From Gammaproteobacteria bacterium Gsub (lineage in GTDB: Bacteria; Pseudomonadota; Gammaproteobacteria; PS1; Pseudothioglobaceae), in NCBI GenBank assembly GCA_002007405.1, contig JYIN01000012.1, forward strand, positions 39,258-103,257: DNA of 64,000 nucleotides, written 5' to 3'. Below are positions 37,337-59,917 of the stretch, in pieces; the first letter of the stretch is position 1, and each line of letters starts with the position of its first letter. Made by a program: the position numbers and the translations under genes. Below the pieces are notes generated by a model. That model saw only the letters and a program-made list of their open reading frames with translations. It made no database searches and was not told the DNA's origin.

Positions 37337-37346
37337 TCGTTAAAAT

Positions 37347-38195
37347 ATGATAACGTTAACGCATCAAGGAAAAGACTACACACTGGTAGAAGACTTTTTA
37401 TCAATTGATAACAAAGCGATTGATAGCAGCCACTTTGTATCATGTCGCCTTACCATTAATGATAGAGAATATCAGTTCATCAATGCTTATGCCAGTGTTG
37501 ATCTTAAAAACCCTGTTGGTATTTGGCAAACTATTCTAACCAATCACGATGCGTTTGATTACAAAAAGGATTTTAAGTATCAATTCAAAATTGATGACCG
37601 AGTATTTTTAATTTCACACAGTGTCGAAAACGGCATTTCAATACATAATAATATTGAGTCTATTGATATTGATGAATTTGAGGCAATAAATGTTGATTTT
37701 TCTAATTTCAAGCGTTTTGACATTCTTAAAACACAGTCTCAAGAACGAGCCGAAAGAAATAAAACTATTAAAAAAAACATTGTTGTTAATTTAATAGTTT
37801 GGATAACACTTGTTTCTGGCGTGTTCTTTTTTTACCAAAGATCATCGACTGATTTTGATAAAACAAACCAAATGCTCTCGGGTTTAAAGTCACAAGTATC
37901 GGGTTTGCAATCCGAAATAAATAACACATTAGAAAATACTATTAAGAATGATGTTCGCTATCAACAAGCGCACATCAAGCGTTTATTTTTATTCCTTGAC
38001 AACGGTATTGAGATAAAAAAAGCAAGTTTTGATCTATCAAAAAGCCAAGGCAATATAACCGTTGATTTTGATGCGATTGAAACGGTTAAGTACATTGCAA
38101 AAATTAACCATTTCACCATTGAAATCGACCGTCATTTTAAAGATGTTATGGCCAATGTGTCTTGGACAGTGGAGCTAAAACACCATGACAGTTAA
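37347..38195 (+). CDS. PilO-like pilus assembly protein
   Basis: The 282-residue protein has a cytoplasmic N-terminal half (about 1-145), a single membrane segment (IVVNLIVWITLVSGVFFFY, near 150-168), a coiled coil (LSGLKSQVSGLQSEINNTLEN) and a small periplasmic domain. This layout and its place between the secretin and PilP match PilO of the R64-type thin pilus, although it is shorter than R64 PilO. It overlaps the next gene by 11 bases. Confidence 0.55.
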   Translation: MITLTHQGKDYTLVEDFLSIDNKAIDSSHFVSCRLTINDREYQFINAYASVDLKNPVGIWQTILTNHDAFDYKKDFKYQFKIDDRVFLISHSVENGISIHNNIESIDIDEFEAINVDFSNFKRFDILKTQSQERAERNKTIKKNIVVNLIVWITLVSGVFFFYQRSSTDFDKTNQMLSGLKSQVSGLQSEINNTLENTIKNDVRYQQAHIKRLFLFLDNGIEIKKASFDLSKSQGNITVDFDAIETVKYIAKINHFTIEIDRHFKDVMANVSWTVELKHHDS

Positions 38196-38649
38196 TTTAT
38201 CAAAATCTTTTTTAATAGCATTATTGGCCAATGTTGTAATCGCATCGGCTTTTTACCATATTGCTAATACTCAATTTAAAGCAGTTGACAGGCAACAATT
38301 ACAAAGTCAAATTAATTTAGAAAAACACAAATTTGCGACTTTAAAGTCGCAGTATAGCGCTGTTCAAGACAACGAAACCATTGGTAAATTTGATTTAGAA
38401 AATCAGTCTAAATTATTAAAAAACATCATTGCTAATTTTAAAGACTCAACCATTAGGCATTTAGATGCCAACAACAAAGGATACGCATTTGGCATTACTG
38501 GTGGGATTGAAACAGTCCTTTTGTTGGCTTATCAAATTAATCAGTTTATTACCAACAATAGAATCAAAGCGAAGGTTAGTGATATTTTAATCAATGGTGG
38601 ACAGGGTAGTATTAAAGTTCAAATTTATGGAGTTAACAATGACAACTAA
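38185..38649 (+). CDS. Inner-membrane pilus accessory protein
   Basis: A 154-residue protein with an N-terminal membrane anchor (FLIALLANVVIASAFYHIA), a coiled coil and a small alpha/beta periplasmic domain. This is the plan of PilO/GspM-type scaffold proteins. It may represent the second half of a split PilO. Overlaps neighbours on both sides. I do not recognise a specific family. Confidence 0.5.
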   Translation: MTVNLSKSFLIALLANVVIASAFYHIANTQFKAVDRQQLQSQINLEKHKFATLKSQYSAVQDNETIGKFDLENQSKLLKNIIANFKDSTIRHLDANNKGYAFGITGGIETVLLLAYQINQFITNNRIKAKVSDILINGGQGSIKVQIYGVNNDN

Positions 38650-39124
38650 AAACAAAATAAGTCTTGCTTTATTATTTTTAAGTCTGTTTTTATCAAAAGT
38701 AGTCATAGGCAATTCTGATGCAATTGAAAGATCAATTCAAAAAACAACACAACTACAAGCGTTAAAACATCAAATCGAAGTCGCTAAAGCTCAAGTAGAG
38801 TTAGCCAAGGCTAAAAAAGAATGCCAAAAAAATGGTGGCTGTATTGAAGCAGATACGTCCATTATTAATATCGACACAACAAAACAAAATGAAATTGAAA
38901 AAATCATAAGCATCAAACAACAATTGAATGAATTGAATGCATTATCAATTGATTCTATCATAAACGGCGCCGTCACTTTTGAGAACTTAGAGGGCAGATT
39001 TAGAACGGGTGATACGGTATTTAATGGTGTTAGCGTAATTGAAATTGATGGTTCAAAGGTTGTGCTTAACCTTGAATCTCAAAATCAAAATATCAGCAAA
39101 ACAATATTTATGGATTGGTTATAA
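38639..39124 (+). CDS. pilP: PilP-like pilus protein
   Basis: The 161-residue protein has a signal peptide (about 1-23), a Lys/Glu-rich coiled coil and a C-terminal beta domain. The pattern in that domain (INGAVTFENLEGRFRTGDTVFNGVSVIEID) resembles PilP of R64-type pili. Periplasmic, likely bridging inner-membrane proteins and the secretin. ATG 38639 follows GGAG and overlaps the preceding gene. Confidence 0.7.
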   Translation: MTTKNKISLALLFLSLFLSKVVIGNSDAIERSIQKTTQLQALKHQIEVAKAQVELAKAKKECQKNGGCIEADTSIINIDTTKQNEIEKIISIKQQLNELNALSIDSIINGAVTFENLEGRFRTGDTVFNGVSVIEIDGSKVVLNLESQNQNISKTIFMDWL

Positions 39125-39126
39125 GG

Positions 39127-40785
39127 ATGTGGGATAAATTTAATCAATTTCTAAAAGCAAACCGTATTGCAACTGACGGTCTTAGTCCCAACCTACTTAA
39201 CAATAATGAGTTAATAATTCCTCATTTAATTGGCCAGATTGGGGAGGATGTTGTTGTAGCAGCCTTAAGCAGTTTTGGGGTTTGTATATTCAACGATTCA
39301 CACAGGAATAATGTTTGTTACACCAACGATTCATTTGTTCTTGTACGAGAACAGACTGGTTCGGATTCGACAGTTGTTGCATTTTGTAAAAATCCATATT
39401 CTTCGCTGAGCATTTTTCAAGCGAACAATAAAGCAAGAGAAAAAAATCTTGGAAAAATTACTCAATTTGGCTTTATTAGCAGTAGTGACAATCTATTTAA
39501 TAAAAATAAAACCAAACCCGCCAAATCTTGGACCGACAACACTGCTCAAAAGCTAATTACAGATATTTTGATGCGAGCTAATGAAAATGATGTTAGCGAT
39601 ATTCACATATCGCCAAGAAATTCCGAAAATATCGCCATTTTGTTTAGGCAATTCGGCGAAGTTGTGGAGTCGGGATTTGATGATGTTTTGATTGATAATT
39701 ACCAACAGTTTGCCAATAGTTTAATTGTCATAGCTGGCGGCAATGGCGGTAATTACAATCGATATTTGGAAAAACAGTTTACTTATAAAAATTCAGGTGT
39801 AGATATTGCAGTGCGATTGCAACAGAACCCAACTATTTACAAATTTAGTGATGGAAAGTTGGTTCCTAGTTTTGTTTTAAGGATTCACAATAATAGAGCA
39901 AAACACAGCTTTAAACTAATTGATGAAATTGGCTTTTTACCAGAACATATAAAAACCCTAAAAACCGCGGCTCGCCAAAATTCTGGCGTTATTGTTGTTG
40001 CAGGACCGACAGGTTCGGGCAAAACTACAGCACTTTATGCGATTTTGGCCGAAGGCATGAGCCGAAGAAAGCGCTTAGTTCAAACCATTGAGGATCCTGT
40101 AGAAATTACAGTTCCCAGCATTGAACAAACTAACATCAACAAAAAGGCCGATATCACCTATGAAAACGCTATTAATGCAATATTAAGAAGTGACATTGAT
40201 ATTGCTCTCATTGGAGAAATTCGTAGTGCTGAAACTGCCAATGGTGTAATCGAACTAGATAGAGTTGGGCACTTGGTTCTTGCGACCATACACACTAAAA
40301 AAACAACCTCTATTATTGATAGACTTCAAGAATTTGGTATTAAGAATACACATATTGCTGATGCGTTATCGGTCATTATTTCGACTCGTCTTGTTAAAAA
40401 AGTGTGTCCAAATTGCTCAACAACCAGCACAACGGTCTCCGAGCTACATGAACATGAATGTGAAAACGGTGAACTGTTAAAAAAATTAAAAATAGTAAAA
40501 GGCAGTCGATACATCGGTCATAACGGTATTCAATCAACCGACCAGCTTGCAATTATTCAAGAACGAGGATGCGCTTATTGTGTTGGCGGTTATTCTGGTA
40601 GAGTTTTGGTAGCCGAAGTGTGTGAAATCGACAACACAATTCATAATTTGATTTCCTTAGGGACTGACAACTCAGAAATTCAAAATCAGATTCAAAATAA
40701 AAACATATGGCAACATGGTTTTGAGTTGGTGCGTCAAAGGGTTACTACACTTGACGCGTTAGAATTAGTATTACCAAAATGGTGA
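39127..40785 (+). CDS. pilQ: Type IVb pilus assembly ATPase PilQ
   Basis: GspE/PilB-family secretion ATPase powering pilus extension. The protein is about 552 residues, with Walker A VAGPTGSGKTTALYA near residue 292, Asp box and Walker B DIDIALIGEIRSAETA, and a His box LVLATIHTKKT. Two Cys pairs (CPNC, CAYC) form the zinc-binding loop. ATG 39127 lies two bases after the pilP stop; a TTG at 39115 is an alternative start. No partner retraction ATPase is seen. Confidence 0.88.
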   Translation: MWDKFNQFLKANRIATDGLSPNLLNNNELIIPHLIGQIGEDVVVAALSSFGVCIFNDSHRNNVCYTNDSFVLVREQTGSDSTVVAFCKNPYSSLSIFQANNKAREKNLGKITQFGFISSSDNLFNKNKTKPAKSWTDNTAQKLITDILMRANENDVSDIHISPRNSENIAILFRQFGEVVESGFDDVLIDNYQQFANSLIVIAGGNGGNYNRYLEKQFTYKNSGVDIAVRLQQNPTIYKFSDGKLVPSFVLRIHNNRAKHSFKLIDEIGFLPEHIKTLKTAARQNSGVIVVAGPTGSGKTTALYAILAEGMSRRKRLVQTIEDPVEITVPSIEQTNINKKADITYENAINAILRSDIDIALIGEIRSAETANGVIELDRVGHLVLATIHTKKTTSIIDRLQEFGIKNTHIADALSVIISTRLVKKVCPNCSTTSTTVSELHEHECENGELLKKLKIVKGSRYIGHNGIQSTDQLAIIQERGCAYCVGGYSGRVLVAEVCEIDNTIHNLISLGTDNSEIQNQIQNKNIWQHGFELVRQRVTTLDALELVLPKW

Positions 40786-40818
40786 TTTAAAAGATATAAA
40801 ACAACAAAGGAGAAAGAA

Positions 40819-41283
40819 ATGGATAGAAAACAGAAACAGACAATGATCCAACGAGGATTTTCATTGATTGAAGTGATAATAGTACTCGCGGCAGTCGCCG
40901 TTCTTGCGACTGTGGTGTATAACATGGGTGATTCAGCAAGGGGAGCAACAGCGCACGCACAAGTGCGAGAAGAGACCAAAGGTTTTTTTACGACTGGTGT
41001 TAGAAACTGTCTAACAAGGGTGCGTGGGGATCTGTCAACTTGTAATGCCGCTAGGCTAACTACGGTTAGTATTTCACCACTCACATCAACTGCAACACCT
41101 TGTGGTGATACTTGGTCGGCAGTTGCAACAGCGCCAAGTGTTGTAGTTACCTACCCACTTGATGAATGTGTTGATAACGATAGTTTTGGCACTGATTTGG
41201 CAACCGATTTATCCATACTCCACAAAGTTACTGCAACTTACGATACAACTACAGATGACTTAATAATTACATACTCAAGATAG
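40819..41283 (+). CDS. pilS: Type IVb major prepilin PilS
   Basis: The 154-residue prepilin has the leader-peptidase site RG/FSLIEVIIVL with Glu at mature position 5. The hydrophobic N-terminal helix and a pair of late cysteines (CGDTW, DECVDN) forming the D-loop follow. It has a strong AAAGGAG ribosome-binding site, fitting a major subunit. No prepilin peptidase (PilU) gene is in the window, so a chromosomal one must process it. Confidence 0.85.
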   Translation: MDRKQKQTMIQRGFSLIEVIIVLAAVAVLATVVYNMGDSARGATAHAQVREETKGFFTTGVRNCLTRVRGDLSTCNAARLTTVSISPLTSTATPCGDTWSAVATAPSVVVTYPLDECVDNDSFGTDLATDLSILHKVTATYDTTTDDLIITYSR

Positions 41284-41323
41284 ACAATAGCTTTAAATGT
41301 TGAATAGTGTTTATGTTTAATAT

Positions 41324-42505
41324 ATGTTTAATAAAATTTATAAAGTTAAGTACACAACAGCTACTTTAGGAGTCCTTACAGAGGTTGTAAGACTCGATCA
41401 TGGTAACTTGAGCAGTCGTGATCGCGGTGCAGACAAAAAAATGTTATTATCAGAAGCACTTAAGATCAACCATAACCAAATCATATCGATTACACTAGAG
41501 CTGGGTATTGTCAGCGACATTAAACAGCGAGATATGTCTGTTGTTTTGATGTCGCTTTATTCGGCAGCACTTTCTGGAGAAAATTTAATTGATTCATTGG
41601 TAGAGACACTTGACGATATTTATGGAGATGAAAACCTTAACAATAAGCTACAACAATTAAAACAACAAGGCCTAACCATTGCAGATATTTTTAAGCGTTT
41701 AAATGCACATCCAGTGATTGTCGAAATTATCCGCTCTGGAGAGCGGGCAAGTAATACTGCAGAAGCATTTGACGATGCTAATGATTTTTTATCATTAGAT
41801 CAAGAAACTAAAAAGGCTAGCAAAACAGGCATTGGTAAGTCTTCTATATATTCAATATTGGGAATAACTCTAATCTTTGTAGTGCCAATTTTTGGCGCTG
41901 ATTTTTTTAACGAGATACTTACTAGTATGAAAAGGGAAGTTGATAATCAGGTTGTTGATTATTTTAATTTTGTTAGCGATAATATTACTGCGATAATTGT
42001 TAGTCTCCTTGTTTTAATTGTTTTTGTTTTATTTGTAATATTCAACAAGCAAACCTATGCGATAGCGAAAAAACTACCTGTTTTTAGAGTCTTTGACCGA
42101 CTTTCATCAATCAAAAGGGCTATTGTATTTATGCCATTTTATTCGGCCCTTAATTTGTCTGGTGTGAACGACAAGAGCATCGTGCAACTTTATGCTGGTA
42201 TTGACAAAGAAATTGCAGCCCAATTATACGGTAGCATTAGCCTTGGCGTCTCACTGCCTGAAGCTATTCAGAAATCCAATATGCCAACGAACTTAACACG
42301 ACATTTGTCAACTGTTTTAAAAATACAAGAACATGCGTTAAGGCGCAAGGCTTTTGGTGGGTTGATAAAACTGTTGACAGCACGTGCTCTTAACGAGGGG
42401 AAAAAGATTTCAACTATGTTTAATATTTTGGGATTCTGCCTAATCTTATTAGGCTTCACGACCATTATTTTTTTCTATCAAACAATGCTCACAATATCGT
42501 TATAA
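41324..42505 (+). CDS. pilR: Inner-membrane pilus platform protein PilR
   Basis: GspF-family protein, 393 residues. It has the paired helical cytoplasmic domains (MSLYSAALSGENLIDSLVETL near 84, FMPFYSALNLSGV near 271). Membrane segments lie near 177-200, 222-245 and at the C terminus. It anchors the ATPase and pilin assembly. The order Q-S-R-V differs from R64, where pilR precedes pilS. It ends 3 bases before pilV. Confidence 0.85.
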   Translation: MFNKIYKVKYTTATLGVLTEVVRLDHGNLSSRDRGADKKMLLSEALKINHNQIISITLELGIVSDIKQRDMSVVLMSLYSAALSGENLIDSLVETLDDIYGDENLNNKLQQLKQQGLTIADIFKRLNAHPVIVEIIRSGERASNTAEAFDDANDFLSLDQETKKASKTGIGKSSIYSILGITLIFVVPIFGADFFNEILTSMKREVDNQVVDYFNFVSDNITAIIVSLLVLIVFVLFVIFNKQTYAIAKKLPVFRVFDRLSSIKRAIVFMPFYSALNLSGVNDKSIVQLYAGIDKEIAAQLYGSISLGVSLPEAIQKSNMPTNLTRHLSTVLKIQEHALRRKAFGGLIKLLTARALNEGKKISTMFNILGFCLILLGFTTIIFFYQTMLTISL

Positions 42506-42508: not shown

Positions 42509-43399
42509 ATGAATCGCGTTAACCGACAATCAGGGTTCAGTCTAATTGAATTGGTTATTGTCCTTTTTATAATATCCTCAATTGCCGTAGTTACTGTGCG
42601 CGCTACAATTAGCAAAAATGCTATAGACAAAATAGCATCAGACGCAGAGCTAACTAAAAATGAAATTACTCAAATTCAACAAGCATCTGGCGGATATTTG
42701 GTAGACATGAATGAATGGCCAGATTTTGCCAATAATTGCGCAAACGCTATTACAACATTAACAAATGCCATGCCAACAGCTTATTTGCGTTTTATTAATA
42801 TTCAATCGCCATATCTAACCAATTATGTAACAAGTTGTAACACTAACACATTTGCAATTGAAGTTGAAACCGACTCAAACGATGCGGCATTGATTTTAAG
42901 CAATCAACTTGCTAATGCAGTTGCAACTGCAACCAACTTTGTTATTGCAGAAATTCCAAGACCAGAAGAACAACCAACTTTGGAGCAGTTTTTATTGCTT
43001 GATGGTAGCAGAGCAATGATGGGTAATTTAGACGTAGGGGGCAATGAAATTAGCAATGTTACAAGATTAACAGCGACAGACGTTAATTTTAATGGCCAAG
43101 ATTTGAAACTAGGGATTGGTAAATTTGTATCAATGGGATCGACTGCATTTAATACGCTCAATGCAGTAGTTAACAAACCTAATTGCACTCAAGGGAGTTT
43201 GGTGGGCACACCTGAAATTATTCTCAGAATACACGGCGTTACAACGATATTGGGTAGCCCGTTAGGGATTAGAAATGTATCTTGGTCGGCAGACTTTAAC
43301 AATATAAGTACAGCCCAATGGCAATTGTCGACAAACGGGCTTTCAGCCATTACAGGGCTTGCTGAGACTTATTGTGACTATGGAAATTGGAACAGATAA
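42509..43399 (+). CDS. pilV: Minor prepilin / adhesin PilV
   Basis: The 296-residue prepilin has the cleavage site SG/FSLIELVIVLFIIS and a mature Glu5. The body carries repeated beta-type segments (LDGSRAMMGNLDVGGNEISNVTRL, as in PilV shaft domains) and ends with a short domain containing two Cys. In R64 the PilV C terminus is the variable recognition tip; no shufflon recombinase is visible here. The stop overlaps the ATG of the first radical SAM gene (TAATG), so that gene is translated with the pilus operon. Confidence 0.8.
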   Translation: MNRVNRQSGFSLIELVIVLFIISSIAVVTVRATISKNAIDKIASDAELTKNEITQIQQASGGYLVDMNEWPDFANNCANAITTLTNAMPTAYLRFINIQSPYLTNYVTSCNTNTFAIEVETDSNDAALILSNQLANAVATATNFVIAEIPRPEEQPTLEQFLLLDGSRAMMGNLDVGGNEISNVTRLTATDVNFNGQDLKLGIGKFVSMGSTAFNTLNAVVNKPNCTQGSLVGTPEIILRIHGVTTILGSPLGIRNVSWSADFNNISTAQWQLSTNGLSAITGLAETYCDYGNWNR

Positions 43400-44469
43400 T
43401 GACTAAAGTTTCTGATAAATTTAATACCATCGCCTATGTTAGACCTACAGAAAAATGCAACTTGCGTTGCAAGCATTGTTTTATCCCGCCTAATGCGTCT
43501 GCCATGAGCAATGAGCAAATATTAATGATTCCAATGCAATTAAGTGCAGCAGGCGTGTCGGGCAATGTGCTATTGCAGTGGCACGGCGGAGAACCACTGT
43601 TAATGGATCCAGTTAGGTGTGAGAATTTAATTGTACAATTAAATAGCCTTGGATATGGTTTTCACATTAACTTTTTACACGGCGTACAAACTAATTTGGT
43701 TGTCTTAAAAAATTTCACCAAAAAGAAACGCGATAAGTGGTATCAAGTTTTGGCGACATATTTTGAACCTGATTTAATTGGTGTTTCTTGGGATTTAGAT
43801 ATCCGTGGCATTAACTTGAGACCGCAAGCACATTTTAATGGGTATTTTGAGCAAGCACTAAATTCTTTAAGAGCATCAAAGCATTTTTCTGAGGATTTTT
43901 CACCAGTTGTTACCATTACCGCGGCAAAACCATTTTTAAGGCATGTATCAGCACTAGATACAAGTATGCATTTTTTAAAGTGGTTGGATTTCTTAAAGTT
44001 AGATACCATCCATATAGAAAAGCTCACGCCGACTGGCGATGCGATTAAAAACTGGCATCAGATAGGCGTAACAAACGCTGAATATTCCAAAGCGATGGGT
44101 AAATTTTATTTGGCTTACAGGCGGTATAAAGATTTACACCCTAGTAGTCCTATTGCGACATCCCCATTTTGCGATTTAGAAGATGCACTCAAGAATGGAA
44201 AGCAAGATAATGTATGTGCTTCTGGCGCGTGTCGGACCAGTATGTTTACTTTCTCAAAAAATGGCATGGTGAAAAGTTGCACTGCCATCGCAGAACATAA
44301 TTTAATACAATTAGAGGGTCATCAAAACAAGGTTAGTGTCAGTTGTTTTGAGTGTGAGTTCAACAATATATGCAATGGCGGCTGTCCCGCACATAATAAT
44401 GTTGTTGACGAATCTATGGAGTGCTCTGGCGCTAAAAAACTTTTAACTTTAATTGGAGATCATTTATGA
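43399..44469 (+). CDS. Radical SAM/SPASM maturase 1
   Basis: The 356-residue protein binds a 4Fe-4S cluster at C20-x3-C24-x2-C27 (CNLRCKHC). A glycine-rich SAM site follows (WHGGEP near residue 61). The C terminus is SPASM-like, with cysteines in CASGACRTS, VKSCTAIAE, CFECEFNNICNGGCP and MECSG, enough for auxiliary clusters. This is the layout of peptide maturases (anSME, HxsB and SCIFF types). ATG 43399 overlaps the pilV stop by one base. It precedes the candidate precursor peptide, so it is the prime candidate for its first modifier. Confidence 0.85.
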   Translation: MTKVSDKFNTIAYVRPTEKCNLRCKHCFIPPNASAMSNEQILMIPMQLSAAGVSGNVLLQWHGGEPLLMDPVRCENLIVQLNSLGYGFHINFLHGVQTNLVVLKNFTKKKRDKWYQVLATYFEPDLIGVSWDLDIRGINLRPQAHFNGYFEQALNSLRASKHFSEDFSPVVTITAAKPFLRHVSALDTSMHFLKWLDFLKLDTIHIEKLTPTGDAIKNWHQIGVTNAEYSKAMGKFYLAYRRYKDLHPSSPIATSPFCDLEDALKNGKQDNVCASGACRTSMFTFSKNGMVKSCTAIAEHNLIQLEGHQNKVSVSCFECEFNNICNGGCPAHNNVVDESMECSGAKKLLTLIGDHL

Positions 44470-44705
44470 TTAACTCAAACAAACCACTGTCGGAGTGGAC
44501 TGAACAAGAAAAAAACGACCGAAGAGCGTTTTTGTCAAAATCTTTCAAAAGGGTCGTTGGTGCATCGGTGGCACTTTTAGCAACCAAAGTTCCTGCTTAC
44601 CAGCAAGAATTGGGTGAAGATAGTACAGATGTGGTTCCAGTACCTAATATTGGTGTTAATGTAACCCCCCCCCACTCAAGCCACTCAAGCAGGAGTTGGC
44701 GGTAA
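44466..44705 (+). CDS. Candidate radical SAM precursor peptide with Tat-like leader and HSS repeats
   Basis: A 79-residue peptide. Residues 17-42 look like a twin-arginine signal: NDRRAFLSKSFKRVVGASVALL with RR at 19-20, a hydrophobic core and Ala-rich end. The short C terminus runs PPHSSHSSRSWR, with two His-Ser-Ser units at 70-75, encoded by a tandem 9-bp repeat. This resembles His-Xaa-Ser precursors (HxsA), whose partners are radical SAM enzymes. A C9 run at 44665-44673 lies just before the repeats. One extra C would fuse the peptide in frame to the next gene; one fewer C would give a different 24-residue tail. The ATG overlaps the stop of radical SAM gene 1 (ATGA). Confidence 0.65.
   Translation: MINSNKPLSEWTEQEKNDRRAFLSKSFKRVVGASVALLATKVPAYQQELGEDSTDVVPVPNIGVNVTPPHSSHSSRSWR
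44665..44673 (+). repeat. C9 homopolymer in the precursor gene
   Basis: Nine consecutive C in AT-rich DNA, codons for Thr67-Pro-Pro-His70. Frame analysis of the three possible lengths gives three products: HSSHSSRSWR end, fusion into the downstream 213-aa protein, or an end containing TQATQAGVGGNHVKISKYC. Homopolymers of this length are prone to replication or transcription slippage. Confidence 0.9.
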
Positions 44706-44707
44706 CC

Positions 44708-45346
44708 ATGTTAAGATTAGCAAGTATTGTTTTGAATCAAAACCCTGATTTGATTCAGCCACCGAAAGTTGATGACAATATTGTTGTTATCAGCTTATTG
44801 GCTGATGCTAACGATATTATTGCGCCAGACATTATAGACGTGGCAATGTCTTATGCTGTTGCTGGTATTGATGTTGTCTTAGAGATGGATTTTGCCAATT
44901 ATGATTATTTTGATCATCAAAAGTTAGCGTCACTTATTTGTAATGGTGGGTGGTCGTTGTCTTTATTGCCACCACAAGATCTTAATAAAGATTCAACTGA
45001 CAAATATTGCCAAATAATTATTGATTGGTATCAATTTTGGCGTGGCGATGTTATGCTAAATTTTGACAAAATTATTTATCCAATAACACCATACGCTGAA
45101 TACTTAACCATTAACCATTTGATTGCCAAAAATAAAGAGGCAATATCCAAAGAAGATAGTGAGTCTTTAAAAATGTTAAGTAAAAATCCAACCGATCCAT
45201 ACGCTGTCAATTTTATTAAGAATATGCAAATCGATGTTGTTGGGGCTTTTAAATTAAAGTTAAATCAGAAAATCGAATCTGACAAAAGTTTCTACACAGA
45301 TGTAGATTTGTTAACTGATCTGACGGAACATGCAACTAGGCTTTAA
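44708..45346 (+). CDS. Unknown protein between precursor and radical SAM 2
   Basis: A 212-residue protein with no family I recognise. ATG 44708 is preferred, with AGGAG at 44691-44695; the same frame is open further upstream through the C9 tract into the precursor gene. It is acidic, with beta-alpha like stretches (NIVVISLLADANDIIAPDIID, GIDVVLEMDFANYDYF). No Cys cluster is present. It might be a recognition or scaffold protein for the peptide. It overlaps the next gene by 17 bases, consistent with one coupled operon. Confidence 0.6.
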   Translation: MLRLASIVLNQNPDLIQPPKVDDNIVVISLLADANDIIAPDIIDVAMSYAVAGIDVVLEMDFANYDYFDHQKLASLICNGGWSLSLLPPQDLNKDSTDKYCQIIIDWYQFWRGDVMLNFDKIIYPITPYAEYLTINHLIAKNKEAISKEDSESLKMLSKNPTDPYAVNFIKNMQIDVVGAFKLKLNQKIESDKSFYTDVDLLTDLTEHATRL

Positions 45347-46490
45347 TTTACATGTTAGGTTAACAACCGCCTGCAATGCTGATTGTAGTTATTGCTCTTG
45401 TGATTCGGATATTCCATCAGATCGAATGTCAATTACCGACCTAAAGAAGTCAATAAATTTTGCATTAAGTAATTTTCTTAAAAGAAGCAATCCAAAAGAT
45501 TATTGCAGTGCGGAAGTGATTGGCGGCGAAGTTATGATATTGCCAACAAGTTATCTGAAAGAGGCTGTTAATACAATAAGATCTGTTGTTGGCAACAAGA
45601 TTAAACATGTCGATGTTGGTTGTCAGAGCAACCTGATAGGTTCTGAAAAGAAGATTAATGCCTTAAAAGAGATTATTGATGATTACAGTATCGGTACATC
45701 AATAGACTCTTTTACAAGTAAAAGAACTATTAAGGGTGATGCAAATAAATACAGGAGATTAGCGGCTCAAGGCGCTAATTATCTGTCAAAAATATCAGGA
45801 GACACAATTGGGACGGTAATTGTTTGTGATAAAGACAATATTGTCAAAATAGTTGATGAATACAGAATTGCCCAAAAGGACCAAAGAAGAATCACCATCA
45901 GACCAGTTTTTACTGGTAAACACTCTATTGACTATCTAGAACCTAAACTATTAGGGAAATATTGGCGGGAACTGATTAACCTCTGGTTTATTGACGGGGA
46001 TATAGTCATTGAACCATTAATGCGCATGACTAAGTCGATGCTTGGTATGCGCAGTGAAGTTATAGGCTGCCCGTATTGGCGTAGTTGTTCAGCCAATAGT
46101 TTAGATATTGAGCCAAATGGTGATATTTATATCTGCCAAGAAATGGCAGACGCAGGAGTTGGCAAGATAGGTAATGCCATTGAAGGTCAGTGGGATGACG
46201 ATATGTTTTTACAGTTAAGCAAAAGACGTATAAATATTGACCAAGAATGCCAAGAATGCCAGTGGTATCGATATTGTCAAGGCGGTTGTATGATGGAATC
46301 AGCGACCGAATCAGGTAGCTTTTATTCAAAACCAGAAAATTGCACGGCTTGGAAAATAATATTTAAAACGATTGATGAGAATATTGCAAAGTATAGCAAA
46401 GATGCCTCTATTAAATGGATTCAAAATATCGAAAATTTAGATCGTGCAATCGTTGACCAGCCAAAAAGCATACCGGTAGCAACGAAATGA
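45330..46490 (+). CDS. Radical SAM/SPASM maturase 2
   Basis: The 386-residue protein has the cluster motif C15-x3-C19-x2-C22 (CNADCSYC). A GGEV SAM segment lies near residue 70. A strong SPASM domain follows: CPYWRSCSANSLDIEPNGDIYICQE, then CQECQWYRYCQGGCMMES and a last Cys in ENCTAW. This resembles the arrangement in PqqE/anSME-type proteins. The start overlaps the previous stop by 17 bases and its stop overlaps the next ATG (ATGA). Confidence 0.85.
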   Translation: MQLGFNLHVRLTTACNADCSYCSCDSDIPSDRMSITDLKKSINFALSNFLKRSNPKDYCSAEVIGGEVMILPTSYLKEAVNTIRSVVGNKIKHVDVGCQSNLIGSEKKINALKEIIDDYSIGTSIDSFTSKRTIKGDANKYRRLAAQGANYLSKISGDTIGTVIVCDKDNIVKIVDEYRIAQKDQRRITIRPVFTGKHSIDYLEPKLLGKYWRELINLWFIDGDIVIEPLMRMTKSMLGMRSEVIGCPYWRSCSANSLDIEPNGDIYICQEMADAGVGKIGNAIEGQWDDDMFLQLSKRRINIDQECQECQWYRYCQGGCMMESATESGSFYSKPENCTAWKIIFKTIDENIAKYSKDASIKWIQNIENLDRAIVDQPKSIPVATK

Positions 46491-47479
46491 TCCAAATTAA
46501 TAGGTTGTTTATCAATACTACTTGGTTTTGTAATATGGACTGCCCCAGATGTTATATCCCCCAAGACTTAAGAAGTGATAGTGCCTCAAAACTTGACACT
46601 GAATATCTTATAAAAATACTAAGGTATTCGGGTATTGACCAAAGCCATAAGACCGTTGTAATGTATATGGGTGGAGAACCTAGCGTCATTGGTAAGAAGG
46701 CTTTAAAACGATACATCAAAACAGTTAAATCTGTCTTGCCAAAAGTAAGACATACTATTGTCACAAACCTGTTTCATTTACCAAATTGGTTAATAGAATT
46801 ATCAATTAATGAATTTGGTGGACAAATAGAGACAACCTATGCCAATGGCAAAAAACAAACACTCAGTGGTAACGAAAAAAGATACCAAGAAAGGTTTATT
46901 AAGAATTTAACAACAATAATAGAAGCTGGCGTGAACTGCACAGTGAATGTTGAACTAAACCTTGAGACCATTAATGCTGGCGTTGAAGCAATAATTGATG
47001 TTATGAAGCGGACAGGCGCAAACGATTGGGCTTTTGATTTTTCAATCAAGTTTGATGAGTTTAACAACAACCCTGTTTATGACAGATTTAATCATCCGAT
47101 TCTTAAAAGTTCTACAACTTTGAAAGAATATTGGGGCTTTGTTAACGCGATTAAGCAGAATAAATGGGTTGCAAACAAGGTGAGAATTGCATCTCGCCAG
47201 GAAGGCTTTAATGTGTTTTCAAAAACAGGGATAACGATTAACCCTAATAATACTGTTACTACTAACCCGCTTTTTTCGACAATGAAAGCATTGCAATATC
47301 CTAATATTGAATCATTAAATCGTTCTAATTTAAATTTGATTAACCAACATCAAAGAAGGTCAGTTCTTAGGATGACATCCTGTTGTTCTAGCTGTATTGA
47401 ATTTGATGATTGTAAGGGTTTTAGTGCACATATCCCTATTCAGCAGGACAATCTTTGCGCTGGGGGTTTGACAATATGA
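46487..47479 (+). CDS. Radical SAM protein 3
   Basis: The 330-residue protein has C15-x3-C19-x2-C22 (CNMDCPRC) and YMGGEPS near residue 64. The C terminus has a reduced Cys set, SCCSSCIEFDDCKGF and a last NLCAGG, so any auxiliary cluster differs from radical SAM 1 and 2. The body between is basic and Asn-rich. It is coupled to the next gene by ATGA. Confidence 0.82.
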   Translation: MIQINRLFINTTWFCNMDCPRCYIPQDLRSDSASKLDTEYLIKILRYSGIDQSHKTVVMYMGGEPSVIGKKALKRYIKTVKSVLPKVRHTIVTNLFHLPNWLIELSINEFGGQIETTYANGKKQTLSGNEKRYQERFIKNLTTIIEAGVNCTVNVELNLETINAGVEAIIDVMKRTGANDWAFDFSIKFDEFNNNPVYDRFNHPILKSSTTLKEYWGFVNAIKQNKWVANKVRIASRQEGFNVFSKTGITINPNNTVTTNPLFSTMKALQYPNIESLNRSNLNLINQHQRRSVLRMTSCCSSCIEFDDCKGFSAHIPIQQDNLCAGGLTI

Positions 47480-48633
47480 GATTGGCCAATCAAGCAAATA
47501 TTAGCATTACCACGAATCGATCGTGCACGCTCCGTTGTGAACACTGCTACATTGAACCGCACTTATTCGCCTCTAAAGAGCAAATAACGGTTGATAATTA
47601 CAAACTATCATTTGATAGAGTTGACAACCTTTATCGGCTTGATCAAGGTTTAGAAGAAGTTGAGTGGGAAGTTATTGGTGGCGAAACCACCATGATGCCA
47701 TTTGAGTTTTGGCAACAAATGCTACCATGGACGATGGATAGAATTGATCGGTTTAACAAAGAACACAACTTATGGATTGATGGCAATTTAAACTTTTTAA
47801 CCAATTTAATTTGGTCTGATAAGCGCTACTTGGGACTAATTCAAGAGCATGCCAAGCATCCATTATTTACGCTTTACACCTCGTTTGAGCCAGATACCAA
47901 TCGATTTGGTAAAAACAATAAATTACTGAACACATGGGCAGATAGACTATCGTCAATTGATGCTAATAATAAAGCGGTCGATCTAATATTGACCAAGGGG
48001 TTGATAGATTTCGGTGCACAACGGGTGGTTGACTTATTATTGCCACTGGGCGTTGATGATTTTTCAATCAAGATGCTTTCACCATTCGGATCTGGCAAGG
48101 TTTTTTTTGATAACAACATGACTCCATTTAAAAGAATGGAAGACTTTGTTATAGAAATTGCAACGCTACTCCCTAGTGGCATTACTTTTACGCCTGGTGT
48201 TGAAATCGAGCATGCTTTTATAAACGGAAAGTCAGTTCAATGTAATGGCAACTTTAGATACGACTTATCAATTGAGCCAAATGGCGATACCCACTTTAAT
48301 GCTAATCAGACTGGAGACGAATCGGTTGGGCTTAACTTAGGTATTAATATTAATAGTGCTAACTGGGCTACTGAAGTGATGTTTGGCAATAGGGCGGAGC
48401 TCAGAACAAAGCTCACTAAACAGCATAGTTGTTGTGATGATTGTAAATATTTACCACGTTGTAATGGCGGTTGGCATCACTATAAATCGATTGATGTATC
48501 TCATTTAATGCAAGATGGCGGTTGTCCTGGACTAAAAGGGGTTTGGGACTATTTAGCAGACAAGTCAAACGGCAAATCAAATCATTCTACATTCCCAGAA
48601 TGGCGTAATCCAAATGGTGGTGTTTATGAGTAA
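47476..48633 (+). CDS. Radical SAM/SPASM protein 4
   Basis: The 385-residue protein has C17-x3-C21-x2-C24 (CTLRCEHC) and VIGGETT near residue 70. A late NGDTHFNANQTGDE and the Cys set SCCDDCKYLPRCNGGW ending GGCPG follow. ATG 47476 overlaps the previous stop (ATGA). An HH motif and the GGW sequence replace the common GGC of SPASM, a divergence shared with no other member of the cluster. Confidence 0.82.
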   Translation: MRLANQANISITTNRSCTLRCEHCYIEPHLFASKEQITVDNYKLSFDRVDNLYRLDQGLEEVEWEVIGGETTMMPFEFWQQMLPWTMDRIDRFNKEHNLWIDGNLNFLTNLIWSDKRYLGLIQEHAKHPLFTLYTSFEPDTNRFGKNNKLLNTWADRLSSIDANNKAVDLILTKGLIDFGAQRVVDLLLPLGVDDFSIKMLSPFGSGKVFFDNNMTPFKRMEDFVIEIATLLPSGITFTPGVEIEHAFINGKSVQCNGNFRYDLSIEPNGDTHFNANQTGDESVGLNLGININSANWATEVMFGNRAELRTKLTKQHSCCDDCKYLPRCNGGWHHYKSIDVSHLMQDGGCPGLKGVWDYLADKSNGKSNHSTFPEWRNPNGGVYE

Positions 48634-49630
48634 ACGATTGTTCCATATTAATGTTACGAGAAGATGTCAGCTTGCTTGCTCCCATTGTTATATTGACCAA
48701 GACATTAGAAACAATGCTGAAGCCATGCCTGTTCCCAAAATGGAAGAAATAGCAAAAGCAATTGGTGATATTGATGCCGATGTCCATATTATTGGTGGTG
48801 AGCCAACGCTAGTTAGTATTGACACGCATAAGCGATACTTGTCAATATTATCAAAGCTTAAAAATTCTAAAATTATGATTGTGACTGCATTACAAAATGC
48901 AAGAGCTGTCAAAGTCGCCAGTCTTTATGAGAACATAGCCACCTCGTATGATCCGTGTGCACGAACAGAGGTTAATAACGATAAATGGATTGCCAGAGTT
49001 AATAAATTAATTAGTCATGGCAATCGAGTGCATGTTTGCACATCTCTTAGCAAATCGGTTATTAATTACGGTATTAATAACTTATTAGACGAGCTATATG
49101 GTTTTGGCTTTAGATCAATTCATTTAGCGCCTATGGTGCCAACGTTAAATGCACTCAGTGAAACACCATGTCCGACAGATACCTCATTGGCGTTAATCAA
49201 GTCGGTCAAATGGGCAATTCGGAAAAGAAAAACAGATAAAGGTATTTTTATATCGCCGTATGATGGATTGCTACAAGGTATGGGAAATTATGACGGACTA
49301 AGATGTCCAGCAGGGGACAGCTGTGTCAATGTAGAGCCTAATGGCAAAGTGCACGCTTGTGTTGCTAAAGGCGGCGAACTTGCAGATGTTGTCACTGGTA
49401 AGATCGAACCAATTTCAACACAACTGAAGAGTAACACCTATATGCTTGAAGTGGCACAGCATAACAGATCAAGACCTGAATGTTTAGGCTGTGAGTTTTG
49501 GACAACTTGTAAGGGCGGGTGTCGTGTATTGGCAAATACAAAAATTGCACAAAACTCTAAAGAATGTGCTGGGTTCAAAACATTTTTAAATTATGTCAAT
49601 TCAACCCAAGGGAGGCAACATGCCACTTAA
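48626..49630 (+). CDS. Radical SAM/SPASM protein 5
   Basis: The 334-residue protein has C14-x3-C18-x2-C21 (CQLACSHC) and IIGGEPT near residue 55. The SPASM pattern is complete: CPAGDSCVNVEPNGKVHACVAKGG, then CLGCEFWTTCKGGCR and a final ECAGF. ATG 48626 overlaps the previous stop by 8 bases and is chosen over 48614. Confidence 0.84.
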   Translation: MSKRLFHINVTRRCQLACSHCYIDQDIRNNAEAMPVPKMEEIAKAIGDIDADVHIIGGEPTLVSIDTHKRYLSILSKLKNSKIMIVTALQNARAVKVASLYENIATSYDPCARTEVNNDKWIARVNKLISHGNRVHVCTSLSKSVINYGINNLLDELYGFGFRSIHLAPMVPTLNALSETPCPTDTSLALIKSVKWAIRKRKTDKGIFISPYDGLLQGMGNYDGLRCPAGDSCVNVEPNGKVHACVAKGGELADVVTGKIEPISTQLKSNTYMLEVAQHNRSRPECLGCEFWTTCKGGCRVLANTKIAQNSKECAGFKTFLNYVNSTQGRQHAT

Positions 49631-50309
49631 TTTAAACGCTTTATACAGAACTGGATTAACAAGCTGTTTACTTAAAGAAGAATTTGCATTAATGCTAAGA
49701 AACTATATCGACCAAGAACAATGGTCAGTTTGCGATGAAGAGGGTTTTTTAATACCAAATTGGATGCTAAAAGGGTTTCAAGCCTTATCCCCGACAAACA
49801 ACCCTGTATCTGAGTTTGAGAAAGAAAAAATCTTACAAAACAATATTAAGCGGTTTACCCCCGAGTGCTATTTTAAGTTTTTTCAAACAATATTCAACAG
49901 TCCTTTATACAATGCAGGTTTAGATAAATTGCACAACAGCAAACTTGAAGTCAACAGTATAGAACTATGGAATGGTGTTGGCAGTGGTGATAATCATTGG
50001 CATTGGGACGGTCCCGGCAATGCAGACGTTTATGCGTTAGTTTATTTAACTGATTACCAATCATGGCTGCAGGAATTTGGCGGGGGTTTTAAATATGGTG
50101 TGGCAGATCGTCTTGCGCAACAAGATGGTTATCACAATGTTCACGAGATTGGTGTTTTTTGCCCAGACAATGGCAGAATCGTTTTAGGCGATAATCGTAA
50201 TCCTTTATGGGTGCATAAAACAATCCCACTAACACAAGAAGCACCAGAAAAGATAAACAGATTTACTTTTTTAGTAAGCCTTACATTAGAGTGTATCAGA
50301 TATGATTGA
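49620..50309 (+). CDS. 2OG-Fe(II) oxygenase-like protein
   Basis: The 229-residue protein shows a jelly-roll dioxygenase facial triad. H128-x-D130 is in NHWHWDGPGN, and a distal H199 is in PLWVHKTIPL. An Arg214 in NRFTFLVSL is at the place of the 2-oxoglutarate-binding residue. GGGFKYG and GRIVLGD are typical strands of the fold. Such enzymes hydroxylate side chains, so it may be a second tailoring enzyme for the peptide. GGGAGG before ATG 49620 supports this start; it overlaps radical SAM 5 by 11 bases and radical SAM 6 by 8. Confidence 0.7.
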   Translation: MPLNLNALYRTGLTSCLLKEEFALMLRNYIDQEQWSVCDEEGFLIPNWMLKGFQALSPTNNPVSEFEKEKILQNNIKRFTPECYFKFFQTIFNSPLYNAGLDKLHNSKLEVNSIELWNGVGSGDNHWHWDGPGNADVYALVYLTDYQSWLQEFGGGFKYGVADRLAQQDGYHNVHEIGVFCPDNGRIVLGDNRNPLWVHKTIPLTQEAPEKINRFTFLVSLTLECIRYD

Positions 50310-51390
50310 AAAAGGAAGGCTCATACTTACAATGATGCCGAGTTTGTATTGCAAACTAGATTGCCCACATTGTTATTTAACCAAGGAGCAAAGAAAGTCT
50401 AAAAAGTGCTTAACATTAAAACAAATGCGAGTCATTTGTGACAAGATTGAGCAATATTATCAAGATAAAGATAATAATGCTGTAATAGACATTTACTGGT
50501 ATGGTGGAGAGCCAACCACAATGGGTACAAAATTATTCTCAAAATTGTGTGATGTCATTAACAAGACATTTAAACGACACAAGTTAAGGCATACGCTGTT
50601 AAGCGCTCTTGTTGGTGTTGATTTAGAAAAATGGACACCTATTGTTAAGAAATATTGTGATGGCAAACTACAAACATCTTACGATGGTTACATGCGCGGT
50701 GATCGTTATGACCAAGCATGGCAAAAGCAAGTTAGGTATGCAGTTTCTCAAGGTTTAGAAGTTAGTACTTTGAGTGTGTTTAACAAGTTTATTAAAAACG
50801 ATGGGCATCAAGCAACATTCGTTAAACTTGCAGAATTGGGCGTTAAAAAATGTGGCTGGCTACCATTTCAAAAAAATATTAGAAATGATGCTACAGGTAT
50901 GTTTGGGGAGCACTCAACAAGTATGCTGGAATTTTCAGAATTTATGATTAAGTTAACTAAGCTTAATACTTCTGTTGACGCCAAGGCAAGAATGTTGATT
51001 GCCAACGAACTGTTTATTAATTCTATGGATATTAACGGGTACAACATGTCAAACACTGGTGCACAAACAGTGTTTTTAATGCCTAATGGCGATATGGTGA
51101 TGCCTGATTACGACAAAGACAATGTCGAATATATGAAAACTTTTGGCAATATACTCGAACAATCGTTTGAAGAAGTTTTGATTGGAAAATCTCGAAGGGA
51201 CTGGATACGCAGACAAATTAATCGCAATGGCAACAAAGAGTGTTTAAATTGCGACAGTTGGAACTGTTGTTTAATGGAATTTTGGAAATGCAACAATAGC
51301 AATGACGATTGCTATGGTGCAAAACTGTATGTTGACTGGATTAAAAAACATTCTAAGCAAAAAGCAACGTGTGTTGAAAATATTGCTTGA
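50302..51390 (+). CDS. Radical SAM protein 6
   Basis: The 362-residue protein has C17-x3-C21-x2-C24 (CKLDCPHC) and WYGGEPTTMG near residue 72. The C-terminal cysteines are in ECLNCDSWNCCLMEFWKC and DDCYGA, again a variant SPASM set. It is the last gene of the coupled cassette. An AT-rich palindrome follows its stop. Confidence 0.82.
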   Translation: MIEKGRLILTMMPSLYCKLDCPHCYLTKEQRKSKKCLTLKQMRVICDKIEQYYQDKDNNAVIDIYWYGGEPTTMGTKLFSKLCDVINKTFKRHKLRHTLLSALVGVDLEKWTPIVKKYCDGKLQTSYDGYMRGDRYDQAWQKQVRYAVSQGLEVSTLSVFNKFIKNDGHQATFVKLAELGVKKCGWLPFQKNIRNDATGMFGEHSTSMLEFSEFMIKLTKLNTSVDAKARMLIANELFINSMDINGYNMSNTGAQTVFLMPNGDMVMPDYDKDNVEYMKTFGNILEQSFEEVLIGKSRRDWIRRQINRNGNKECLNCDSWNCCLMEFWKCNNSNDDCYGAKLYVDWIKKHSKQKATCVENIA

Positions 51391-54156: not shown

Positions 54157-54786
54157 ATGGTGCTGAAAATGAAAACTAAGGACATTATAAATAAAGCAAA
54201 AGAGATGCAGTTTAAAGAGAAAATTACATGGGTTGTAATTTTCTCTTTAATAATAATTGTATTGGTACAAACAATTGTTATCTTTTCTCTTGGCACCAAT
54301 CGTGTTCATAGAATTTCAATACCGCCAAGTATTGAGTTTGGTGCAATGGTTGACACCGATACAATCAATCCTTTTGAAATTTACCAAATTGCTGGAGCAA
54401 TTACCCAGCAGTTGTATTTGTGGCAAGATGGTGAGCAAGATTTTAAGAAGAACATTAATAAATTTAACGCATTTATCACACCTGCCTATAGGCAATATTT
54501 GTTGGCAGAATATAACAACCTGCTTAAGATTGGGCAACTAAAAGGTCGTGAGCGTAGCTTGCAACCAGTCAATATCTACAAGGAAAGTTCGGTTCAGAAA
54601 AACAATGATGGAGAATGGACTGTTGCAATTGATTTTCAGCACCAAGAACATATTGACAACCAAAGATTTAAAGACTTCGTCATAAGACATTTAATTAGAG
54701 TTGTTTACAGGCAAATCGATGGAGAGTCTAACCCGTGGGGCTTGCAACTTGATGTGCCTACAATCAAACCGTTACGACTTAAATGA
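54157..54786 (+). CDS. DUF2895 / PFL_4703-like (VirB8/TraE-type) protein
   Basis: A protein of about 209 residues with one N-terminal membrane segment (WVVIFSLIIIVLVQTIVIF) and a periplasmic domain with DTINPFEIYQIAGAITQQLYLWQDGEQDF. This is characteristic of the TraE/VirB8-like T4SS component. ATG 54157 is chosen; a TTG at 54145 and ATG 54169 are alternatives. The stop overlaps the next ATG by four bases. Confidence 0.72.
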   Translation: MVLKMKTKDIINKAKEMQFKEKITWVVIFSLIIIVLVQTIVIFSLGTNRVHRISIPPSIEFGAMVDTDTINPFEIYQIAGAITQQLYLWQDGEQDFKKNINKFNAFITPAYRQYLLAEYNNLLKIGQLKGRERSLQPVNIYKESSVQKNNDGEWTVAIDFQHQEHIDNQRFKDFVIRHLIRVVYRQIDGESNPWGLQLDVPTIKPLRLK

Positions 54787-55604
54787 GAAATTTAATGAAT
54801 AGAGTGTTCAACTTATTAAGTGTTTTGGTATTAGCACTGGCATTTGCATCTAATGCAAATGCCAGCTCATTGAGACTATTAAACACGCCAGGTGATCCAA
54901 TTCCATTAGGTTTAATAACAGGTCAAGAAGTTGAACTGTTTTTCGATGGCACAGGTTTGGAGGAAGTTGGTGTTCCTTTGAGCTTAAAAGACAAGATACA
55001 TACACAATCTATTGATTCGCGTTTGTGGATAACAGCTAAGGTCCCGTTCGACCCAACGCGTGTATTGGTGAAAGACAGTCTAGGCAATATCAATATATTG
55101 CTATTGAGTGCAAAAATAAAGATAACCAACAACACCAGTAACTTGCCCGTTAAATATCAAGTTGTAACAAAAAAAATAACGCCACAGAAGCAAAAACACC
55201 AAGCTGAGCAAAGCAACTGGAAACAACCAACTATTGTTGATTTAACCAGATTCGCAGCACAAACATTTTACGCGCCAGAGAGGCTTGTCAAACCAATTGG
55301 TGCTATCAGAGTGCCTATTGATACAACACCAGTTGGGCTGTTTGTTTGCTCAGAAAACATGGCCTGTAATGGCAATGTAGAGGCCATGCCAATGGCCGCA
55401 TGGCGTAGCCAGAACCATTATGTTAGTGCCGTTATGTTAAAAAACCAAACCAAGTCTCAAATCATGCTTGACCCTAGAGATTTACAAGGACGCTGGAAAG
55501 CGGCCACTTTTCAATTTAATCGTTTGGGCTCGGCAGGTCTGCCAACGGACATATCGGTCGTTTATTTAATTTCAGTATCACCATTTGGCCAAAGTTTAAA
55601 CTAA
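54783..55604 (+). CDS. PFL_4704-like (TraK/VirB9-type) protein
   Basis: A 273-residue periplasmic protein with a clear signal peptide (LSVLVLALAFASNANA). A beta-rich body and the family's late RDLQGRWKAATFQFNRLGSAG block follow. It is the expected VirB9/TraK equivalent, joining TraB-like protein and outer-membrane lipoprotein. One-base TAATG overlap with the next gene. Confidence 0.72.
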   Translation: MRNLMNRVFNLLSVLVLALAFASNANASSLRLLNTPGDPIPLGLITGQEVELFFDGTGLEEVGVPLSLKDKIHTQSIDSRLWITAKVPFDPTRVLVKDSLGNINILLLSAKIKITNNTSNLPVKYQVVTKKITPQKQKHQAEQSNWKQPTIVDLTRFAAQTFYAPERLVKPIGAIRVPIDTTPVGLFVCSENMACNGNVEAMPMAAWRSQNHYVSAVMLKNQTKSQIMLDPRDLQGRWKAATFQFNRLGSAGLPTDISVVYLISVSPFGQSLN

Positions 55605-59914: not shown

Positions 59915-59917
59915 GGA

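Follow-up and report, generated by a model that had tools for sequence, protein, structure and literature searches.

A cassette of radical-SAM enzymes and a candidate precursor with a conserved tail behind conjugative type IV pilus genes

The stretch of DNA analysed here (the window; 64,000 nucleotides (nt) of contig JYIN01000012.1, assembly GCA_002007405.1, from Gammaproteobacteria bacterium Gsub) carries an integrating conjugative element (ICE) of the PFGI-1 class, in which a nine-gene cassette at 43399-51390 encodes six radical S-adenosylmethionine (radical-SAM) proteins and a small candidate precursor, directly downstream of a pilV-like prepilin gene. Cassettes orthologous to it follow a prepilin gene in a Bathymodiolus symbiont as well as on eleven megaplasmids from Vibrio, Pseudomonas and Rhizobium. 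Judged from sequence conservation, the set very probably modifies the C-terminal tail of the small protein. The system as a whole probably represents a new class resembling ribosomally synthesised and post-translationally modified peptides (RiPPs), in which five to ten radical-SAM enzymes modify the tail of a peptide that is then exported and employed together with the conjugative type IV pilus; a role of the product at this pilus is, as a separate claim, nearly as plausible as its opposite. The cassette genes are, in order:

43399..44469, + strand: r1, radical-SAM protein with SPASM-like cysteines (CX3CX2C; orthologue clade of seven rows, 100/99)
44466..44705, + strand: candidate precursor of 79 amino acids (aa) (twin-arginine translocation (Tat)-like RRAFL start, DST motif, C-terminal PPHSSHSSRSWR)
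44708..45346, + strand: p3, partner protein that lacks cluster cysteines and belongs to an orphan family (profile and predicted fold)
45330..46490, + strand: r4, radical SAM/SPASM protein (TIGR04085 50.2 bits against a cut-off of 27; clade of seven rows, 100/100)
46487..47479, + strand: r5, radical-SAM protein whose C-terminal cysteine set is short (PF04055 40.1 against 29.5; clade of five rows, 100/100)
47476..48633, + strand: r6, radical-SAM protein, not present in L004 (CX3CX2C; clade of five rows, 96/99)
48626..49630, + strand: r7, radical SAM/SPASM protein (PF04055 32.4 against 29.5, TIGR04085 37.6 against 27; clade of seven rows, 98/98)
49617..50309, + strand: ox8, 2-oxoglutarate (2OG)-Fe(II) oxygenase-like protein (reciprocal best match to the 2OG oxygenase of locus L012, 22%)
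50302..51390, + strand: r9, radical SAM/SPASM protein (PF13186 28.5 against 21.5; clade of seven rows, 100/100)

An earlier interpretation, made from the letters of the window alone (the sequence-only reading), had described these nine genes, six of them for radical-SAM proteins, and the description holds, with a CX3CX2C motif near the N-terminus of all six proposed radical-SAM proteins. The profile search that it proposed gave a divided answer: PF04055 was passed by r5 and r7 and a SPASM model (TIGR04085 or PF13186) by three of the six (r4, r7 and r9), a SPASM pass not being shown for r1, r5 or r6, but r1 and r6 passed none of PF04055, PF13186 and TIGR04085 (for r1 against TIGR04085, among the best 25 of 47 rows). 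Both match many radical-SAM peptide-maturase models below the cut-off. The statement that every junction in the cassette overlaps needs one correction; r1 and the precursor overlap by ATGA, but if p3 begins at the ATG that its family conserves (44708), a 2-nt gap separates precursor and p3, and this one junction is the exception.

The genes r1, p3, r4, r7 and r9 occur in all 13 element loci, a count that takes two Rhizobium stretches as one and leaves aside L008 (genome G051) and L010 (genome G041, where the contig ends), as does the upstream count below, and the precursor lies between r1 and p3 in 11 of the 13. The core set is r1, r4, r7, r9, p3 and the precursor; in Rhizobium, r7 and r9 are located apart from the remaining cassette genes. 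The Pseudomonas carriers include IncP-2 plasmids (L012 is IncP-2-type), pQBR103 (L019) and pMPPla107, and the same-family relatives sharing the cassette are G056 (the Bathymodiolus symbiont, locus L004, record NZ_FQTR01000065.1) and G041. Each of the six radical-SAM proteins of the window is the reciprocal best match of a different gene in L012, L017, L018 and L019, and such matches were also found in Vibrio L011 for r1, r4, r7 and r9 and in L004 for all except r6, r1 being matched in every one of these loci. Identity and BLAST values in these comparisons between loci were computed against small custom databases; they place r6 at 43-52% identity to its reciprocal best matches in the four Pseudomonas plasmids and r9 at 41-42% identity to its Vibrio and Pseudomonas orthologues. 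r5 was not found in either Vibrio cassette scored (L011 and L032). In a tree of 54 proteins, selected by motif and length (a filter that removed L017 e and g) and with long branches between clades, the window is represented in all six orthologue clades and the symbiont in all but that of r6.

The precursor of the window has a counterpart in the same slot of L004, a 70-aa protein with the C-terminal sequence PPPHASHSSRSWR. Across the last 12 codons of these two genes 11 residues are identical, and nine of those 11 codons differ, by 15 nt in total; the tail residues are thus kept while the codons diverge, which points to selection on the peptide and not on the DNA. Eight Pseudomonas plasmids and the Rhizobium plasmid encode between r1 and p3 a 115-135-aa protein with a start that, by eye, resembles a general secretory (Sec) signal, and with ends such as CHGACHGACHGSRGWR or CYSNCYSNCHGSRSWR. 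The shared tail reads H-x-[SA]-R-[GS]-W-R. The Vibrio cassettes of L011 and L032 have no precursor gene in the r1-p3 slot, and a search with the tail as a DNA pattern located two precursors in each of three Vibrio megaplasmids (L011, L032 and L033, the last with its cassette read in part), tens of kb from the cassette. These proteins have signal-like starts and end in HGSRSWR, and both are annotated as hypothetical in the one record checked. Beside one of them (L030, 8349-12078) lie two thioredoxin-type genes and a gene for a trypsin-like protease. Since orthologous cassettes keep the precursor, in the same slot in 11 of 13 cases and with two copies elsewhere in two Vibrio plasmids, the earlier proposal of a multi-enzyme peptide-modification system on a conjugative element, with the 79-aa protein as its likely substrate, is strengthened.

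Each of 13 records scanned with the tail pattern holds a frame of 70-183 aa, counted from the first start, that ends in the tail (16 genes), and so do two of four further records (Rhizobium and G313; two genes). The remaining matches, 9 of 25 in the 13 records and 6 of 8 in the four, all fall in frames of 27 codons or fewer. The same pattern written backward matched 0 times in 5 records, 4 times in 13 and once in 4, and as this control is not zero, it is the open frame and not the bare match that separates true cases from chance. The pattern gave no precursor in G041 and G051, each of which has only part of the cassette. A set of 16 loci (524 kb), two of which, L030 and L031, had been picked for containing the motif, has 1903 open reading frames (ORFs) of 60 aa or more. 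An R[GS]WR end occurs in 13 of these, every one a candidate precursor, and is therefore not a chance feature. Four p3 homologues have frames that extend upstream; in each of them a shifted frame permits R[GS]WR-stop immediately ahead of the conserved start of p3, and such an end is possible at 7 of 11,132 background positions, these four included.

A homologue search with 12 precursor queries returned 159 proteins at E 0.01 among 4214 candidates, and R[GS]WR is the C-terminus of 117 among the 120 listed, a uniformity that is partly by design because the search uses shared five-residue words. In these 117, the final 20 residues include cysteine (Cys) in 91 proteins and lack it in 26. Histidine occupies position -7 in all 91 Cys tails and in 25 of the 26 Cys-free tails, and the Cys type has C at positions -8 and -12 throughout (91/91). 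Near the start, 25 of the 26 listed Cys-free homologues have a Tat-like [RK][RK]xF motif (the pattern was [RK][RK].F for the 26 Cys-free proteins and RR.F for the 91 Cys-type proteins, after the twin-arginine consensus). The Tat system carries folded proteins. In the window precursor the start reads RRAFLSKSF, with RRAFL before a hydrophobic stretch as judged by eye, and TatC is encoded in the host genome (G000), as expected of a Tat substrate. Ten precursors had no NCBIfam or Pfam match above cut-off.

Two further radical-SAM enzymes, a and b, accompany the Cys-repeat tails in 11 of 11 cases and the Cys-free tails of the window and L004 in neither, and they are also present in G313, where the tail has Cys. 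A Fisher test of this association gave p 0.013, a value that overstates it because related plasmids were treated as independent.

A run of nine C residues (44665-44673) directly precedes the core codons of the window precursor, in a genome of ~37% GC. Protein P0001, from a 559-bp contig and 91% identical overall, agrees with the precursor up to this run and then seemingly continues in another frame, which could reflect slippage (phase variation) or a sequencing error. A precursor search had no match in 398 genomes of the phylum, a search that is uninformative as it also missed the precursor of the window; a class-wide pattern in 56 genomes gave two bare pattern matches, in two genomes.

The partner protein p3 has 26 homologues at E of 0.01 or below among 115 candidates, and a profile comparison joins the window family with the p3 proteins of the plasmids (probability 96.3, E 1.6e-9). 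Its structure model (pLDDT 80.8) has SuiB and SkfB as best fold matches, with no Foldseek match at E 0.001. For ox8, which had been described as resembling a 2OG oxygenase, the evidence is divided: its orthologue from the Pseudomonas plasmid L012 passes PF13640 (32.7 against 27), and the residues W128, H129, D131, H200 and R215, which include the HxD...H triad, are the same in all eight aligned orthologues, but the window protein has no Pfam match of its own. A sequence search of solved structures with ox8 returned no oxygenase among its matches.

Searches with tblastn matched r4 in 147 plasmid records, E. coli among them, and r9 in 142, a few of them weakly, and a search with the IncP-2 precursor found 129 plasmid records; the surroundings of the cassette were read in eleven plasmids. 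Among 369 genomes of the class, r9 matched in three, namely the genome itself, G313 and G012 (a 59-residue piece with a stop); r4 matched in three of 95 relatives and p3 in three of 83 family genomes, the host genome being included in both cases. Searches of 50,697 phage records for r9 and of viral contigs for p3 and the precursor turned up no relative, and a phage origin of the cassette was rejected on these grounds.

Several cassettes carry additional genes. Within the IncP-2-type cassette of L012, positions 9886-13350 encode a 1155-aa protein with a phosphoenolpyruvate (PEP)-utiliser domain and a sub-threshold rhodanese match, and PEP-utilising genes occupy the equivalent place in L013 and L019-L022. 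In G313 (L023, 2929-5509), r9 is followed by two further CX3CX2C proteins without a match to cassette proteins. Small proteins with a hydrophobic segment that is similar by eye are encoded between r7 and r9 or after r1 (L011 18046-18300, L012 18824-19141 and L100 3253-3624) and look like a further conserved membrane partner. In G051 (L008, 1075-3469), a p3 gene and a truncated r4-like radical-SAM frame beside a reverse-transcriptase-like gene are apparently the remnant of a decayed cassette.

A pilin-type gene lies directly upstream of the cassette in all 14 systems with a visible upstream side, which are related elements and not independent cases (window, L004, L011, L012, L013/L060, L017, L018, L019, L020, L021, L022, L032, L053 and, with pilins and pilR, G313). 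In the window the start of r1 overlaps the pilV stop by one shared base (TAATG), as had been proposed, and in L053 the pilin-type gene is ~0.7 kb from the first cassette gene. Six systems have the upstream gene annotated as prepilin-type and three as 'type II secretion system protein'; in four (window, L004, L018 and L053) the pilin was recognised by sequence. In G313, r1 comes after a pair of pilin-like genes and a gene of the pilR type (T2SSF 43.3 against 25.2 bits). The plasmids differ in conjugation type: eight of eleven have mating-pair formation type MPF_I (PLSDB typing) or DotA/TraY genes, pKF715A has MPF_T and two are untyped. As the conjugation machinery varies between PFGI-1, MPF_I and MPF_T, the pilus is the constant neighbour of the cassette. 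The pilus and conjugation genes of the window are:

34482..42505, + strand: rest of the type IV pilus locus, with PilL2, secretin, assembly ATPase, PilR, PilS and others (TIGR03748 80.2 against 64.15)
42509..43399, + strand: pilV-like prepilin, directly upstream of r1 (N_methyl PF07963 27.1 bits against 21.2)
54783..61269, + strand: conjugation genes for TIGR03749, TIGR03752, a TraC-type ATPase and TraU (profile scores)

The Secretin, T2SSE, T2SSF and N_methyl models exceed their cut-offs in the pilus locus, and the pilV-like prepilin also passes TIGR02532 (24.4 against 16.3) and is 54% identical to pilV of L004. The scores of the conjugation genes, in bits against cut-off, are 657.1 against 520.6 for TIGR03744, 159.4 against 138.8 for TIGR03749, 242.2 against 241 for TIGR03752 and 214.3 against 188.35 for TIGR03756, and TraU corresponds to PF06834. 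PilL2, TraC_PFL_4706, TIGR03749, TIGR03752 and TIGR03756 are all above their curated cut-offs and mark the element as a PFGI-1-class ICE. The host genome is 1.37 Mb in 14 contigs, and a tRNA-Lys gene (24215-24290) stands to the left of the element genes, which follow in the order parA/parB-like genes (by eye), topoisomerase gene, type IV pilus locus and conjugation genes. Two ORFs towards the left end of the ICE (25672-29038) contain tandem short repeats, with GSKNII units and ECKESLHSSNNYKTKHTKK units. Right after the cassette (51670-52509) is a lipoprotein-like ORF with a HEFGHALGVLRH metalloprotease motif, a candidate protease that scores under the cut-off of Peptidase_M66 (17.8 against 20.6 bits). 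At this place, after r9, L004 has a pilT-type gene, and six loci of Pseudomonas plasmids (L012, L013, L019, L020, L021 and L022) have a gene for a pilT-type ATPase followed by an EAL-domain gene; no pilT was seen among the window ORFs after r9.

The order of the genes, their orthology between elements, the conservation of the tail and the location after pilin genes are direct observations, and from them we infer the chemistry of the cassette and its role at the pilus. The conserved C-terminal tail of the precursor would be the target of the radical-SAM enzymes, one after another. The protein p3, whose predicted fold is a half-barrel resembling RiPP maturases, may present the precursor to the enzymes, and r1, r4, r7 and r9, common to all 13 cassettes, would then modify the shared H-x-[SA]-R-[GS]-W-R end. 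In Cys-repeat tails, the (C-[HY]-x-[AN]) repeats might be where a and b introduce bonds, and r5, r6, other radical-SAM paralogues and the 2OG oxygenase may add changes specific to each element. These enzyme assignments follow from co-occurrence. Motifs judged by eye suggest export through Tat in the ICE and symbiont forms and through Sec in the others. Once outside, the tail could serve the pilus, as its position next to the pilin genes suggests; the simplest roles would be a ligand for mate recognition at the tip or surface, or a component bound to the pilus. In its broadest form, which we put forward tentatively, R-[GS]-W-R tail peptides, with up to ten radical-SAM enzymes per tail, would be a working part of conjugative type IV pili in Alpha- and Gammaproteobacteria, including multidrug-resistance megaplasmids of Pseudomonas, as a crosslinked tip or mating ligand absent from pilus models. 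Some arrangements weigh against an exclusive link to the pilus. In G313 the block of a, b, precursor, p3 and r4 is on another contig than r1 and adjoins a two-component-like pair and an elongation factor P (EF-P)-like gene (by eye), with r7 and r9 on further contigs, and the Vibrio precursors are tens of kb away from their cassettes.

For most of the enzymes the named model with the highest score is a RiPP maturase such as DynA or AmcB, and antibiotic radical-SAM RiPPs are described in the part of PMC8326336 considered here, which would fit a secreted antibacterial or anti-competitor peptide of the darobactin or dynobactin type, directed at element-free cells and with the pilus locus as a mere genomic home. 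However, all equivalog scores are far under cut-off (DynA 96.5 against 450), the gene tables showed no immunity or dedicated exporter gene, although no search was aimed at these, and the pilin-type neighbour recurs in 14 of 14 systems. The last seven residues, moreover, are nearly invariant among the listed homologues, an end that the search favours, unlike what an arms race would produce, and we regard such a peptide as unlikely. Alternatively, a periplasmic protein could use the tail as its metal site or redox cofactor, comparable with pyrroloquinoline quinone (PQQ), mycofactocin or copper peptides, for a job in envelope redox or metal supply instead of at the pilus. This agrees with tails that are rich in His and Cys, with the two-component-like pair beside the G313 block, with the thioredoxin-type genes near one Vibrio precursor and with the PEP-utiliser-domain protein and its sub-threshold rhodanese match in some Pseudomonas cassettes. 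It is nevertheless quite unlikely: the tails of the window and L004, and those of 26 of the 117 listed motif-bearing homologues, are Cys-free, the window and L004 still keep r1, r4, r7 and r9, the cassettes read show no conserved partner oxidoreductase, and the pilin neighbour would be left unexplained.

The translational overlap of r1 with pilV raises the question of whether the enzymes modify the pilins PilV or PilS, with the small protein as adaptor or regulator, and PilV of the window and L004 does end in W-N-R too. In the plasmids read, in contrast, the PilV-type proteins end in YCYYP, YCLY, YCLNDIKKTP or similar, without W-R, and PilV profiles align over 87 N-terminal columns only, reasons for which the pilin was rejected as substrate; the conserved peptide end belongs to the small protein, and pilin modification is very improbable. 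That ordinary metabolic radical-SAM enzymes have gathered behind pilV by chance is hardly credible. The best score of r7 is to an anaerobic sulfatase maturase model (53.5 against 349 bits), and the cluster is called arylsulfatase/SAM in the passage of PMC4989453 that mentions it, but the set is conserved orthologue by orthologue, together with the precursor, across Alpha- and Gammaproteobacteria.

Should the favoured reading, a modified tail peptide used with the conjugative pilus, prove true, conjugative elements would have a heavily modified peptide of their own with a bearing on mating-pair formation, and enzymologists would gain an unusually dense radical-SAM set per peptide. Natural variants, Cys-free with five or six enzymes and Cys-repeat with up to ten, help to separate the tasks of the enzymes.

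Radical-SAM clusters beside type IV pili have been noted before in pQBR and IncP-2 plasmids (PMC4989453, PMC7070040, PMC13391042; here and below, as far as the passages considered extend), so that less is new than the sequence-only reading claimed. In pQBR57, 16 arylsulfatase/SAM genes adjoin the type IV pilus region and are common to pQBR103 (PMC4989453), a plasmid described as lacking identifiable antibiotic-resistance genes (PMC7070040), and plasmid papers from 2015-2026 describe, in the parts considered, a pilus-adjacent radical-SAM cluster conserved across very different megaplasmids. The role of the cluster is called unclear (PMC7070040) and its function is said to await experiment (PMC13391042); the passages of the three papers name no substrate or precursor and make no link to ICEs, Vibrio or Rhizobium, and the word RiPP is absent from the main text of PMC4989453 and PMC13391042. 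In an open-access literature search, which covered no subscription papers or preprints, none among the matches listed ties such a cluster to a peptide, and the matches listed for the tail string looked unrelated by title and the start of the abstract. The precursor and its terminal signature now supply a candidate substrate for this plasmid cluster.

The CX3CX2C motifs, the SPASM domains and a conserved precursor with a conserved core would place the cassette among radical SAM/SPASM RiPP systems in the broad sense, and it resembles several of them in part. As in the dynobactin and darobactin systems (DynA, DarE; NF041298, NF038005) and with SPASM maturases, the enzymes stand beside a short precursor whose C-terminal tail is the presumed target; unlike darobactin, where one enzyme makes both bond types according to the part of PMC8326336 considered, there are five to ten enzymes per cassette, and membership was rejected on the DynA score given above and a DarE score of 41.7 against 650. 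The His-Xaa-Ser system (HxsA-D), to which the sequence-only reading had also pointed, shares with the window H-x-S repeats in the tail and several radical-SAM enzymes, but the plasmid tails read have C-x-x-x repeats instead, and this suggestion fell, with HxsB at 31.7 against 370, HxsC at 25 against 267.9 bits and no HxsA match of the precursor. The Cys at every fourth residue of the plasmid tails recalls the CXXX-repeat and Cys-every-fifth systems (TIGR04115, NF038107), from which the cassettes differ in that Cys-free members keep the shared enzymes; these families were likewise rejected, at maturase scores of 15.6 against 350 (TIGR04115) and 30.4 against 600. The closest known relatives are the pQBR and IncP-2 clusters, compared with which the window cassette is smaller, Cys-free and part of a PFGI-1-class ICE. 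In pQBR103 (L019) and the IncP-2-type L012 the genes run r1, precursor, p3, r5, r6, r4, ox8, r7, r9, which is the order of the window except that r4 has moved.

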